DNA from: an uncultured Duodenibacillus sp.
GTDB taxonomy: Bacteria; Pseudomonadota; Gammaproteobacteria; Burkholderiales; Burkholderiaceae_F
Direction of reading: 5' to 3'
DNA: 64,000 bases
Assembly: GCA_944390745.1 (NCBI GenBank)
Contig: CALXQK010000020.1
Coordinates: forward strand, 58,489 to 122,488
Part shown: piece by piece, positions 31,856-36,852 of the stretch
How positions within the stretch are numbered: position 1 is the first letter of the stretch
Layout of the letters: every line of letters begins with the position of its first letter
Position numbers and translations under genes: made by a program
The notes under the pieces: generated by a model
The model's database searches: none
Told to the model about the DNA's origin: nothing
Seen by the model: the letters and a program-made list of their open reading frames with translations, nothing else

Positions 31856-33724
31856 TCAGCCCTGGCGCAGCGAGACCTCGGCAATGAGCCCGCCCGCGGG
31901 GCGGGGAACGTAGTGCAGGTGTCCGCCGTTGGCCTCGGCAAGCGACATGGAGATCGGTATGCCGAGGCCATGGCCGTTGCCGCGCTCCGAGATAAAGGGC
32001 GTGGCCAGCTGCGTGAGGTCGGCCTCCGAGATCATCCGGCCGGAATTTTCCACGGTCACGACGACCTTGCCCCCGCAGGCGGCGGCGTGTACGGCGACGA
32101 GCCGCTCGTCGGTCTGCAGGGCGGCCGAGACGGCATTGCTCAGAAGGTTGTTGAATAGAAGCTCGAGCTCGAGCTGGTCGCCGAGCACGAAAATGTCGGG
32201 CGCGGCATCCATCGCGATGTCAAGCGCCTGCACGAGCGGCTGCGGCATGCTGTCGCGGGCTGTGGCGAGAATCCCGGGCAGGCTGAGGCGCTGGTCCCGG
32301 TCGACGCCGCCGCGGTTGTAGCTGCGCACCTTTTCGATGATGCTGCGCGAGCGCATGAGGCCGCGCTCAAGGCCGTTGATGCAGCTGGCGAGCTTTTCCT
32401 CGGTGAGGGTCTTTTTCTGCACGAGCAGCTTGAGTCCGTTGCAGTATGAGACGGCCGCGCCGATGGGCTGGGCGAGCTCGTGGGCGATCATGCTCGAGAG
32501 CTGGCTTACGGTGTTGGCCTTGCGAAACTTCTCCATGCGCTCGTAGAGCGCCTGCAGCCGGTGTTCGACGGCGGCCTTCTCGGCGTTGGCGCGGGCAAGC
32601 TCATCGGTTCGGCGCCGCACCAGAAGGCTCACGATGAAGCTTTGGCCCACGAGCAGCGCCAGGCAGAAGATGAACGCCGCAATCCAGGGCTTGTGGGCGT
32701 CAATCCAGCGCTTGACGCTCCAGTCGCGCAGATACGCGTAGTGCTCAAGCTTCAAGAGCCGGTAGACGCGGTCAATCGACTGAAAGTTCGTGGCAAGTCC
32801 TCAGTGCTCGCCGTTTTCATCGACCGGCATCGACAGCAGCACCTTGGCGATCGCGCGTGCCGCCCCCGGCGGGGCGTCGCGCAGGACGGCCACGGTGGTG
32901 TTGGGATAGGCGGCCGTGGAGCGCACGCAGGCCGTGATTCCATCCTCAATGGGAGCGATCACGCGAAAGCGTGCGCGCCCGGCGGGCGAGAGCGACTCAA
33001 GCCAGCACGTCTGCACGAAGGCGACATCGGCCCGGCCGTCGAGCACCTTGCCGGCAATCGGTTCGATCTCGGGCGTGCTGCTGAAGACGACCGAGGAAAA
33101 GAACGTCTCGGGGTCATAGCCCCGTGAGGCGATTTCGGCCAGTCCAATGCGGTAGCCCATGAAGGCCGTGGGATAGCTTGCCGACAGGCGCGCGCCCCTC
33201 ATGTCCTCAAGCGTGTGAACCGTGCGGTTTTCGCTGCTGGTGATGAAGGTGATGGCCGAGGCCTGGTTGGGGTCCGGGCTGCGGCGCGAAATCATCGTGG
33301 CGACGTCCCGCGCCCCGAGCGGCACCATGCGCCAGTAAAAGTCCGAGCTGGCGATGAAGGCGTCGACCGTGCGGTCGCGGATGGCCTTCTCAAGTTCGGC
33401 GCTTGAAAATTCCTCGATGTCGATCTGGTAGGGGTGAAAGGCCTCTCGCAGCGCGCGCACGGACTTTGCAACCAGTCCCGTGACCTTGCTTGCGTCGGAA
33501 AGCTCAATGAGTCCGATTCAAAGCGGACGGTCTGGATAAAGCTGCCGCGTGGCCGCGCTGATGCCGTCGGGCTGCCCCATCTGCCCGGGCGCCGCATCCG
33601 GCTCCCCGGCAGCAGGCGCAGGCGCTGCGGTGAGAAGAACAAGGCCGGCGGCAAGCGCCGCGAGGCAGCAAAGGGCGCCCCGGGCAAGCGGGTGCCGGCG
33701 GGGAGGGCGGCGGCAGAAGCGCAT
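31856..33724 (-). pseudogene. PhnD-domain sensor histidine kinase (TtrS-like) with two in-frame TGA codons
   Basis: One continuous minus-strand frame of 622 codons encodes a signal peptide, a periplasmic PhnD-like binding domain (about codons 65-300, with DMRGARLSASYPTAFMGYR), a transmembrane segment (AFIFCLALLVGQSFIVSLLV), a His box (SSMIAHELAQPIGAAV) and an ATPase domain (NNLLSNAVSAAL; GNGHGLGIPIS). This is the layout of the tetrathionate sensor TtrS. TGA interrupts it at codon 69 (33518-33520) and codon 308 (32801-32803), with the frame intact on both sides. Both can be explained by a single transition, from CGA or TGG and from TGG. The start is two bases past the response regulator stop. 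Other genes here use TGA as stop, so nonsense mutations are the simplest reading. Confidence 0.85.
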
Positions 33725-33726
33725 GG

Positions 33727-34377
33727 TCAGGAGATCCTCAGGAACGCGCGGCGCTCGGCCTCGGACAGGCGGCCGAGCACGCGCAGCAGACCCTCGGTAT
33801 TGAGCACCCGCAGCTTGCGGTAGATCGTGTTGCGGTAGTTCTGGACGGTTTTCAGGGATAGGCTGAGCCGCTCGGCGATGGCGCTGTTGACAAGTCCCTG
33901 CACGAGCAGCGCCGCAAGCTGCTTTTCACGCGCCGAAAAGCCCTCGAGCACCTCGCACAGCGACTTGTAGTCAAGGCCGCCCAGGCGCTGCTCGAGACTG
34001 TGCTTTACGGCCTCCTCAACGCTTTCAAGAAAGGCCTGCGGGGAGACGGGCTTTTGCAGGAAGTCGACCGCTCCCATCTTGAGGGTGCGCACGGCCGAGT
34101 CGATGTCGGCGTGCCCGGTGAGAATGATGATGGGCAGATCAATGCCGCGGCGCTTGATCTCCTCCTGCAGCTCGATGCCCGACATGCCCGGCATGCGGAT
34201 GTCGAGAACAAGGCAGCCCGGCACGCTCGGCGCGTCGGCCGTGAGAAAGGCCTGCGCCGAGCGGTAGCCTGCGGTTCTCCAGCCCTGGGCGTCAAGAAGA
34301 AAGCGCAGGCCGTCAAGAAAGTCCTGGTCGTCGTTGACGACCCGGATGAGCGGCTGTTGGTCTTGTTTGTCGGACAT
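33727..34377 (-). CDS. Response regulator, FixJ/TtrR-like with LuxR-type HTH
   Basis: A 216-residue two-component regulator. The receiver domain has NDD near the N-terminus, the phosphorylated Asp59 in VLDIRMPG, a Thr in ILTGHAD and Lys in LQKPVS. The LuxR/FixJ helix-turn-helix spans about 145-205 (FSAREKQLAALLVQGLVNSAIAERLSLSLKTVQNYRNTIYRKL). It lies between the tetraheme cytochrome gene and its partner kinase pseudogene in one operon. It appears intact although the kinase is broken, so it may be unphosphorylated, cross-activated or on its way to loss. Confidence 0.93.
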   Translation of the reverse strand: MSDKQDQQPLIRVVNDDQDFLDGLRFLLDAQGWRTAGYRSAQAFLTADAPSVPGCLVLDIRMPGMSGIELQEEIKRRGIDLPIIILTGHADIDSAVRTLKMGAVDFLQKPVSPQAFLESVEEAVKHSLEQRLGGLDYKSLCEVLEGFSAREKQLAALLVQGLVNSAIAERLSLSLKTVQNYRNTIYRKLRVLNTEGLLRVLGRLSEAERRAFLRIS

Positions 34378-34389
34378 CTTCGGGTGAGC

Positions 34390-34746
34390 CTACTTCTGGC
34401 CGGAGCCGCCGTGGCAGCTGTCGCATCTCTGGAAATTGTATTGGTGGTGGCACTGGTAGCACGCCTCCACCGTGGCCTTCTCGCGGTTGGGATCCTTTTT
34501 GGGCGGCATGGCGTGCGGCGTGTGGCACATGGTGCACTCCCAGATCTGATCCATTCCGCCGGTCTTCGTGTGCGGAATGAACGTGTGGGGATTGACGGGC
34601 CTGGGGTCGGCTTCGACCGCAATGCCCTTTGCAATGAGCGCCTCAAAGGGACCGTGGCATTGAAGGCATTGCTGCTTGGTCATCTGGGCGGCCAGGGCCG
34701 GGCCCGCAAGTAGTGGGAGAAGGGCGGCGATGATGAGCTTGTTCAT
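34390..34746 (-). CDS. Small periplasmic tetraheme cytochrome c
   Basis: A 118-residue protein with a Sec signal (MNKLIIAALLPLLAGPALAA) and four CxxCH haem sites: CLQCH 27-31, CTMCH 71-75, CYQCH 96-100 and CDSCH 108-112. Additional His residues could be distal ligands. The size and spacing recall the tetrahaem domain of flavocytochrome c fumarate reductases and the Shewanella small tetraheme cytochrome. It would carry electrons from an inner-membrane quinol dehydrogenase to the flavoprotein encoded directly upstream. It is 12 bases from the response regulator gene. No damage is visible. Confidence 0.93.
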   Translation of the reverse strand: MNKLIIAALLPLLAGPALAAQMTKQQCLQCHGPFEALIAKGIAVEADPRPVNPHTFIPHTKTGGMDQIWECTMCHTPHAMPPKKDPNREKATVEACYQCHHQYNFQRCDSCHGGSGQK

Positions 34747-34928
34747 GGCTGTTTTTTTCGGCAGTGTTTTGATGGGGTTGGGTTGGTTTCGGGCCGAACG
34801 GCTTTCACGCTGCGCCCGCGCCGGGCGCAGCGCAGCCTTTTCGAAGTCCCCGAGCAGCCGCGCGGCCGACGGGGACCGCGCGGCGGCTTCGGGCAGAGGA
34901 GAAAGACAGAAGCCTGCGCCTTGATTGA

Positions 34929-36517
34929 TCAGGCGGCCTTGGCCCTTGCGGCGTGCTCGCCCGCCCAGCGGCCCGGGATGATGCCGCGGGGCATGCCGTT
35001 GCCGACATAGATGCCGCCGCAGTTTTCACCGGCCGCGTACAGGCCCTCGATGGGCTTGCCGACAATGTCGAGCACCTGAGCGTTGTCGTTGATCGACAGG
35101 CCGCCGGCGCAGTTGTGCAGGAACACCACCAGACGCACGGCATAGAAGGGCCCCTGCGCAATCTTTGTCTTCAGAAGTTCAGCGGGCTTGCCGAACTCCT
35201 CGTCCTTGCCCGCATCCACGAAGCCGTTGTAGCGCTTGACCTGGGCGGCGAGCTCGGGCTGACTGGTGATCTTTGCAAGCTCCCCAATCGTGTCGGCCTT
35301 GAAGGCGCAGCCCTTCTTGCAGACGTCCTCGGCAATCGACCAGTGCTTCTTCCTGGCCGCGGCCTCGTCAAAGATGGTCCAGATCACCAGGTCGGGCTGC
35401 ACCAGCGCCATGTCGTAGAACGTGTAGCCGCCGAGATCCTTCTTGTCCTCCTCGCGGACAAAGCGCCTGCCCGAGGCGTTGGTGAAGATCACGTCTCCCC
35501 AGCGGCGGCCTTTGACGCCGATGCCGGGGCGGCCGAACTTCGAGCCCTTCGGGAAGCCGTAGGTGCGCGTGCCGAACATGCGGTGCATGTAGGGCGTGTC
35601 CTCGCCGCGGCCGGCCTCAAACATGGCGCCCGCCTTGAGGCCTGCGATCATGGTCGAGCCGTCGTCCTCGTAGTGCGGGTAGCCCGTGGCGGGAATTCTC
35701 GGATCGGCAAAGCGCGGGTCGATGTAGCGGCGCATCGCGATGTTGCTCTTGAAGTTGCCGCCCGCGAGAACCACGCCCTTGCGGGCGCGCACGTTGATGA
35801 CCTTGCCGCCGGCCTCGACGCGCGCGCTGATCACGCGCCCGTCGGCGTTCTTGTAGACGTCGGTGACCTTGTGCTCAAGAAGGATCCTGACGCCCTTGCC
35901 CTCGCAGTAGGCCTTGAGCGGCATCATGACGCCGCGTCCGCCCATGAAGCCGCCCGAGGGCTGGGGCTTGCGGTTGCCGTCGCCGGGGTCGTCGGTGTAG
36001 ACGTGCAGGTAGAACTCGTGGGGCTGGCTGTCGTACTTGCCGGGCTTGGTTGCCGTCCGTCGGCAGGAACTTCACGCCGTGCGCCTCAAGCCACTCCTGC
36101 GTGGGGCCGCAGTACTGCGAGTATTTCCGAAGCAGCGCCCGGGTTGTTCTTCTTGTACTCGGGATTGGTCGGGTCGGTGAGGTGCGCGTAGAGCCGCTCG
36201 GGCGTGTCCTTGACGCCGTGCTCGCGCTGCCACTTCGTGCCGCCCTGAAGCGCCATGATGCCGCCGTTGATGACGGCCGTGCCGCCGTAATAGCGGCCCT
36301 TTTCAAACACGACGACGCTGGCGCCCTCGTCGACGGCCGCAGCAGCCGCGCACATGCCGGCAATGCCGGAGCCCGCGACCACGACGTCGGCGGTCATGTC
36401 CCACTTCGAGAGGGTGGGCAGAAGCCCGGGAGTCGGCGCAGCAAAGGCCGGAGCGGCAAGCCCGGCCAGTCCCGATGCGGCGGCGCCCGCCAGAAATGAA
36501 CGGCGAGAAACTTCCAT
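34929..36517 (-). pseudogene. Tat-exported FAD-binding reductase, frameshifted twice
   Basis: The start at ATG 36515-36517 gives a Tat signal (SRRSFLAGAAASG) and an FAD fold (VVVAGSGIAGMCAAA). The frame shifts by +1 near 36120-36135 (into KYSQYCGPTQEWLEAHGVKF) and again by +1 near 36048-36055 (into YDSQPHEFYLHVYTDDPGDG), after which GVVLAGG, ASGRRFVREED and GLYAAGENCGG follow to the end. Restored, it would have about 528 residues. The fumarate-reductase active-site His and Arg are not conserved (HNCAGG, NGMPRG), so it represents a different acceptor class. The tetraheme cytochrome gene follows at 183 bases. An assembly error cannot be excluded, but the adjacent kinase is also broken. Confidence 0.85.
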
Positions 36518-36852
36518 GATTGATCTCTTTGGTGCGCCGGCGGGCTCCATGAGAGTCTGCAGCGCTGGCGAAAGCAGTTGACTCATGCAGAAGTTTCCCA
36601 AGGCCGATACCCGGGTATGCTGACTGCCGTCACAAGTCGGCCGCGTCCCTTGCTTTGCACCCTCGCGCCTATTTGCATCGCCGCCGGCTGCGGCAATTTG
36701 TGCCAAACTTGACTGCGCTCTTTTTTGAATAAATCCTGCGCGCGCCTGACGGCGCAGGGCCTGGGGCCGGCGCCGCGGGCGCGATGCCTTCAGGCGATTC
36801 GTCCCTTAATCTTTTTTTGGCCTTTTGCCAAAGGCCAGCGAGCTGCAAACCC
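36518..36852. promoter_or_regulatory. Divergent region between the reductase locus and nadE
   Basis: A 335-base gap. It should contain the regulated promoter of the flavoprotein-cytochrome operon on the minus strand and the nadE promoter on the plus strand. I could not identify a clear operator for the TtrR-like regulator. Confidence 0.4.

Follow-up and report, generated by a model that had tools for sequence, protein, structure and literature searches.

A probable acceptor-responsive flavin-reductase operon of Duodenibacillus and a putative TAC-N4-GTA operator shared with its relatives

Gut bacteria reportedly carry large repertoires of respiratory reductases, as described by Little et al. 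Large per-genome sets of flavin- and molybdopterin-dependent respiratory reductases occur in Eggerthella lenta and other gut bacteria (PMC13060105), and gut reductases stand under substrate-specific regulators (PMC9734109). For histidine kinases with a PhnD sensor domain, the accessible text of one survey counts 154 distinct proteins, 131 of them beside a regulator; 13 of these pairs lie by thiosulfate genes, 18 lie by tetrathionate genes, and most have no assigned partner (PMC5408782). In Vibrio parahaemolyticus the TtrR box, GTGG-N4-CCAC, directly precedes the -35 box and was verified by electrophoretic mobility shift assay and deletion (PMC11293645). Here we analyze four genes in a 64,000-nucleotide stretch (the window; contig CALXQK010000020.1, positions 58,489 to 122,488, assembly GCA_944390745.1) from an uncultured Duodenibacillus, a genus of Sutterellaceae. 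We consider it likely that they represent an acceptor-responsive periplasmic flavin-reductase operon for an organic electron acceptor, a lineage-specific relative of TtrSR-controlled respiration.

Pfam matches on the separate pieces bear out the placement of four consecutive minus-strand genes at 31856-36517, for a flavoprotein, a cytochrome, a regulator and a kinase, that the original prediction had made. The flavoprotein gene falls into a 5' part (36086-36517) with a putative Tat-type signal and an FAD-binding N-terminus (FAD_binding_2, 2.8e-12), whose frame is lost near its end, and a 3' part in a different frame (34929-36062, with a called open reading frame at 34929-35945; FAD_binding_2, 2.2e-21); these share 84% and 91% identity, respectively, with the copy in a related metagenome-assembled genome (MAG), L034 (CALXQS010000023). 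Its N-terminus, MEVSRRSFLAG, is Tat-type by eye, and the two arginines are kept in 14 of 14 aligned flavoprotein rows. An intact gene for a 118-residue tetraheme cytochrome c follows (34390-34746; Paired_CXXCH_1, Cytochrom_c3_2), with a Sec-type signal by eye and four CxxCH motifs that are invariant across 12 aligned homologs. The response regulator (33727-34377; Response_reg 5.1e-25, GerE 2e-12; recognition helix TVQNYRNTIYRKL) is intact and FixJ/TtrR-like, scoring 158.5 bits against the FixJ model and 138.7 bits against the TtrR model, both below cut-off. The sensor histidine kinase gene (31856-33724), interrupted by two in-frame TGA codons, is matched in halves by PF12974 and HATPase_c (3.4e-15), is 71% identical to the open L034 kinase when stops are read as X, and encodes a PhnD-like (Phosphonate-bd) periplasmic sensor domain at 32801-33517 (PF12974, 1.5e-19). 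Because the cytochrome and regulator genes are 12 bp apart and the regulator and kinase genes nearly abut, the three are compatible with a single transcript. The source genome comprises 2.22 Mb in 20 contigs, and the nearest named relatives of the operon are uncultured Duodenibacillus MAGs.

The linkage of these genes, observed directly, extends well beyond the window. Among 67 genomes of the family, 13 contain a flavoprotein match at E 1e-80 or better and 12 contain a close ortholog, defined as 58% identity or more to the L034 flavoprotein. In all 12 of these, tetraheme cytochrome and PhnD-kinase genes adjoin the ortholog, ruling out the possibility that the genes are unlinked. The regulator is present at 11 of the 12 loci and is not seen at the twelfth (L079) because the contig stops within the kinase. 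Three Duodenibacillus loci have the order flavoprotein-cytochrome-regulator-kinase; in seven others, and in L079 up to its contig end, the order is flavoprotein-cytochrome-kinase-regulator, and in L071 it is kinase-regulator-flavoprotein-cytochrome. The original prediction proposed searching relatives for the same gene order with kinase and flavoprotein intact, and L035 (CALXKM010000007) provides such a copy, with four open frames and a regulator that ends about 13 residues early. In L034 the flavoprotein, cytochrome and kinase are open and the regulator has an internal stop.

Among solved proteins, the flavoprotein comes closest by profile to flavocytochrome c3 fumarate reductases (4.1e-54) and urocanate reductase (5.5e-48). 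In place of the HH motif that precedes GG in FccA, all 14 aligned rows have an invariant first His (H469) followed by Asn (N470), and the L035 protein scores 217.2 bits against the flavocytochrome c model TIGR01813, below its cut-off of 285.45. This enzyme class, together with the linkage in 12 of 12 genomes, supports the earlier idea of an acceptor-responsive respiratory module built on a flavoprotein.

For relatives with open genes, we infer the following scheme of ligand, DNA binding, electron flow and reaction. The PhnD domain of the kinase would bind, in the periplasm, the acceptor itself or a chemically similar compound, and the kinase would then phosphorylate the FixJ/TtrR-type regulator. 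The regulator would bind a TAC-N4-GTA site upstream of the flavoprotein gene and activate the operon, its own genes included. The FAD protein, presumably exported by Tat, and the tetraheme cytochrome, presumably exported as well, would form a split flavocytochrome c, with electrons passing from quinol through a NapC-type quinol dehydrogenase encoded elsewhere to the tetraheme cytochrome, then to FAD and finally to the acceptor, where the reaction is probably reduction of an activated C=C bond. One NapC/NirT-type match that could supply the quinol link is found in the genome.

The pairing of PhnD kinases with flavoproteins is a broader feature of the family. PhnD kinase matches occur in 39 of the 67 genomes, with at least 19 in the richest, a lower bound since 19 candidates were scored in the larger genomes. 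We took a non-random sample of 60 family PhnD kinases, namely those next in score order after the ones already collected, and found a flavoprotein within 4.5 kb of 49, accompanied in 30 by a cytochrome that has at least three CxxCH motifs; a regulator lies near 53, a molybdoenzyme seed match near one, a regulator only near 10, and none of the searched partners near one. Clustering at 60% identity (kinases over 450 residues) leaves 37 of 46 clusters flavoprotein-linked, with one cluster mixed. As background, positions within 4.5 kb of a flavoprotein make up about 15% of the window's genome, a share expected to be higher in richer genomes. Within the window's genome, four of five PhnD kinases stand beside a flavoprotein and a regulator; the fifth (L052, G000:C5:127000-141000), which has no nearby flavoprotein, is by a phage-integrase-family gene. 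A tree built from 80 kinases places 10 of the 12 found beside the orthologous flavoprotein in a single supported clade with 15 members, the exceptions being the unrelated L071 kinase and L077_k0, a second kinase at a locus whose other kinase is in the clade. Among the papers listed by a search of the literature, none has a title or abstract opening on PhnD kinases paired with flavin reductases, subscription papers being mostly outside its scope.

Outside the family, the neighborhoods are different. The sensor domain is matched in 36 of 300 genomes of the same order, 6 in the family and 30 outside it, and among 20 out-of-family neighborhoods picked roughly by score, none has a flavoprotein within 4.5 kb; a kinase-domain match is present in 16, a regulator in 15 and a molybdoenzyme seed match in 5. 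A class-wide kinase search at 1e-45 found no match in 368 other genomes, a weak indication of absence given that three candidates were scored per genome. Two out-of-family kinase-regulator pairs have Sox genes nearby (SoxB at L206 and L211, with SoxA and SoxZ also at L206), which suggests a thiosulfate sensor for Sox at these loci. The sensor might instead report something other than the enzyme substrate, such as a sulfur oxyanion or the general redox state, in the manner of TtrS, ThsS and perhaps the sox-linked kinases. This alternative draws on the fact that the PhnD kinases characterized in the available text sense tetrathionate or thiosulfate (PMC5408782), and on the SoxB genes in 2 of the 20 out-of-family neighborhoods. 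We consider it quite improbable for the family, where a flavoprotein stands beside 49 of 60 kinases (in a census whose sulfur-enzyme search covered molybdoenzymes only) and where sensor divergence follows enzyme divergence. Over 58 kinase-flavoprotein pairs, sensor-domain and enzyme distances correlate with a Mantel r of 0.61 (0 of 2000 permutations), and the catalytic part of the kinase gives a somewhat lower r of 0.53, with close orthologs raising both values.

Control of the operon by its own regulator is suggested by a palindrome. TACCCGGGTA, a putative regulator operator at 36608-36617, has its center about 95 bp upstream of where the flavoprotein gene starts and is the sole TAC-palindrome-GTA in the window. 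Of the 57 loci collected, each with a flavoprotein over 400 residues no more than 1.5 kb from a kinase, 19 have a perfect TAC-N4-GTA in their 250-bp promoter, compared with a mean of 0.03 (maximum 1) over 200 dinucleotide shuffles; this count is partly non-independent, as the palindrome was first spotted in the orthologous cassettes that the set includes. The next commonest of the 64 outer triplets, TGC, is found in 4 of 57 promoters, and the density of the TAC palindrome is 1.32 per kb in promoters versus 0.006 per kb over the remaining sequence of these loci. One of the four matches outside promoters (L053:5608) lies upstream of the likely Tat start of its gene. When one mismatch is allowed, 31 of 58 loci, the window included, have a site.

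Ten of 11 orthologous cassette promoters examined carry TACCCGGGTA, TACTCGAGTA or a one-off form, and the exception, L071, has GTTCCCTAGGGAAC instead, with a sensor and regulator from another lineage. The pattern TACYCGRGTA occurs once in the window's 2.22 Mb genome (C20:95096-95105, the window site itself) and once in G006, each time at the cassette, and not at all in G008, where the site is imperfect; a reversed control pattern occurs 8, 14 and 11 times in these three genomes. Seven other genomes together contain TACTCGAGTA nine times, and seven of these sites sit at cassettes of the same kinase clade; in those genomes TACCCGGGTA is found six more times and a mixed form once, none at cassettes of this clade. 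The TAC palindrome is present at 2 of the 30 flavoprotein loci of the window's genome, examined with 1.5-kb flanks (the window cassette and a cassette on C8), and at none of the 20 out-of-family loci. By eye, a TTGnGA hexamer follows the palindrome after 6 bp in three Duodenibacillus promoters. A search for FNR-like sites upstream of 11 cassettes gave three matches (L072, L076, L077) and none in the window, and such a site was set aside. A second palindrome class, TGCCTAGGCA, forms perfect 12- to 14-mers in the promoters of L120, L135 and L140, whose regulators have TVDH-type recognition helices.

Several observations weigh against an acceptor-responsive reductase operon. No TAC..GTA site is found in 27 of 58 promoters at one mismatch (L053, among them, has a perfect site after start correction), and no flavoprotein lies within 4.5 kb of 11 of the 60 sampled PhnD kinases. 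The pairing of enzyme and sensor breaks in L071, where the ortholog stands with an unrelated kinase, and four loci (L059, L080, L081, L082) have flavoprotein homologs of 48-53% identity with a tetraheme cytochrome and no PhnD kinase. The NapC match carries an internal-stop flag. The enzyme itself is nearly as close to the 3-ketosteroid dehydrogenase (KSTD) family, whose profile match (4at0, 3.2e-45) is slightly behind those of the reductases, and Foldseek ranks the 3-ketosteroid-delta4-dehydrogenase 4at0 first, followed by flavocytochrome c3 and urocanate reductase, and also lists cyclohexanone dehydrogenases. Moreover, the column of the FccA residue Arg402, fixed in the profile alignment via the mutant entries 1jry and 1lj1 (R402K and R402A), holds Lys in Duodenibacillus; the other cassette members have Ala, Gly or Ser there, four more distant rows have Ser, Thr or Trp, and the Arg544 region fails to align. 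A fumarate-type mechanism is therefore not transferable, and the missing Arg402 rules out a fumarate reductase proper. As a separate observation, both L081 and L082 contain a divergent gene of LysR-like appearance by eye.

The same data could be read as a catabolic dehydrogenase or desaturase of the 3-ketosteroid or cyclohexanone type that passes electrons out via the cytochrome, with a sensor that detects the growth substrate. The Foldseek ranking, the KSTD profile match and the absence of the fumarate-reductase arginine all favor such an enzyme. The structural ranking is weak, however, because the AlphaFold model has a mean pLDDT of 68, with residues 305-339 under 50, and the top TM-scores are about 0.5-0.6; we have dropped claims about the active site for the same reason. 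By profile, flavocytochrome c3 and UrdA outscore KSTD, paralogous flavoproteins are abundant in the family (32 places in the window's genome), and a flavoprotein plus multiheme cytochrome is found in 30 of the 60 PhnD-kinase neighborhoods. With reductases as the closest solved relatives and a tetraheme cytochrome as constant partner, a non-respiratory role, which the original prediction had named as a challenge to its reading, is less likely, and we regard the dehydrogenase as rather improbable compared with the periplasmic reductase.

Recognition helices and operators vary together across the loci. In 28 loci where both could be compared, the helix has Gln as its second residue and the operator C as its fifth base in 15, the corresponding pair is Glu and T in 9, and there are four exceptions. 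Permutations reached the observed value 0 times in 5000 on all loci and 23 times in 5000 when the 20 distinct combinations were used; of the three pairings tried, the other two were weaker by the latter measure (88 and 253 of 5000). Because relatedness was not removed, the covariation is suggestive only. The sequences suggest a rule by which a C at position 5 of the operator is accompanied by Gln as the second residue of the helix, and a T by Glu (24 of 28 loci), and the change from QGH to QNY in Duodenibacillus may likewise match the change from TACTCGAGTA to TACCCGGGTA. A larger idea, which we hold to be possible if somewhat short of probable, is that one ancestral TtrSR-like pair has multiplied in Sutterellaceae into many insulated channels, each with its own sensor, reductase, helix and TAC-N4-GTA operator. 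In that case operators could be used to map which sensor controls which reductase, PhnD sensors would form a readable catalogue of gut electron acceptors, and regulator-operator covariation would provide a natural test set for the insulation of paralogous two-component systems.

The window's own copy is disrupted in two of its four genes, as the original prediction had recognized. The flavoprotein has two frame changes, both between about 36040 and 36150 and at most about 100 bases apart, and the kinase has two TGA codons in about 620 otherwise open codons. In the closest relatives, L034 and L035, both frames are open, and the operon copy in the window's genome is probably dead. Alternatively, the four lesions could be sequencing or assembly errors, and the operon would work in the cell. 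The lesions are read from the assembled sequence; the frames are open apart from them; and comparison of the broken genes with relatives gives low dN/dS values (about 0.08-0.11 for the flavoprotein pieces and about 0.09-0.25 for the kinase pieces, to be taken qualitatively as dS is close to saturation). Yet four lesions fall in two genes of a single locus, none of the 35 flavoprotein matches in the genome has an internal stop, including the 34 elsewhere (frames are short in two, the cassette copy with 380 residues and a C15 copy with 326), and the four other PhnD kinases have open frames. The stop in the L034 regulator, in the same operon of a related MAG, may be an error too. We judge errors unlikely, though not negligibly so, as the source of the lesions. 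The L034 stop is at codon 116 (L034:11491-12138) and may reflect decay or error. Single internal stops are seen in further PhnD kinases of the family (G043:C1:2113756, G044:C6:553508, several at G057:C1, and G055:C73:25570), and decay of PhnD sensors, or errors in them, may be common in this family.

The cassette has also changed place, leaving reciprocal empty sites among relatives. In G006 and G008, hemD-ppa-nadE-glnB are contiguous and the gap between ppa and nadE, where the window has the operon, is empty (L150, L151); ppa is within a 1.5-kb flank of nadE in eight of nine other genomes of the genus. Conversely, the operon in G006 and G008 lies between an ABC-F gene and cstA, which are adjacent in the window's genome (L161). 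The window thus shows a module that moved and then seemingly broke. Plasmid-borne copies were considered and set aside, the L035 flavoprotein having no match in 72,556 plasmid records at E 1e-40. A further genome in the genus (L083, G002:C8) has a truncated family flavoprotein of about half length with no adjoining tetraheme cytochrome or PhnD kinase.

Like TtrS/TtrR with TtrBCA and ThsSR with PhsABC, it combines a PhnD-domain kinase and a FixJ-type regulator beside respiratory genes (PMC11293645, PMC5408782), and the kinase shares the sensor domain PF12974 with TtrS (1.5e-19 in the window, 2.8e-20 in L035). Its putative operator resembles that of TtrR in being an inverted repeat with half-sites flanking N4 upstream of a reductase gene (PMC11293645). 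The operon differs from the classic tetrathionate system, as the original prediction had anticipated: unlike TtrBCA, it has a flavoprotein and tetraheme cytochrome and no molybdoenzyme among its four genes, its sites read TAC-N4-GTA rather than GTGG-N4-CCAC (the TtrR box is in 0 of 57 promoters), and the L035 proteins miss the TtrS (187.9 of 750 bits) and TtrR (145.4 of 290 bits) cut-offs, which rules that system out. In FccA the tetraheme cytochrome is a domain of the same chain. The operon is like Shewanella FccA and UrdA in joining a FAD_binding_2 enzyme to a tetraheme cytochrome partner and unlike them in its separate 118-residue cytochrome gene and dedicated sensor pair.

The family also recalls the gut reductase arsenals, with many flavin-dependent respiratory reductases per genome (PMC13060105); E. 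lenta, however, uses membrane-spanning LuxR-type regulators in place of PhnD kinase and FixJ-type regulator pairs. With sensor, operator and enzyme in one small operon and a relative in which all frames are open, the respired substrate becomes a question for reporter assays. Such operons, of which relatives carry many, each apparently equipped with a sensor of its own and often with its own DNA switch, might help reveal what gut bacteria breathe. Our census proposes a class for a large further group of PhnD kinases, in that most of those examined in one gut family pair with flavin reductases.

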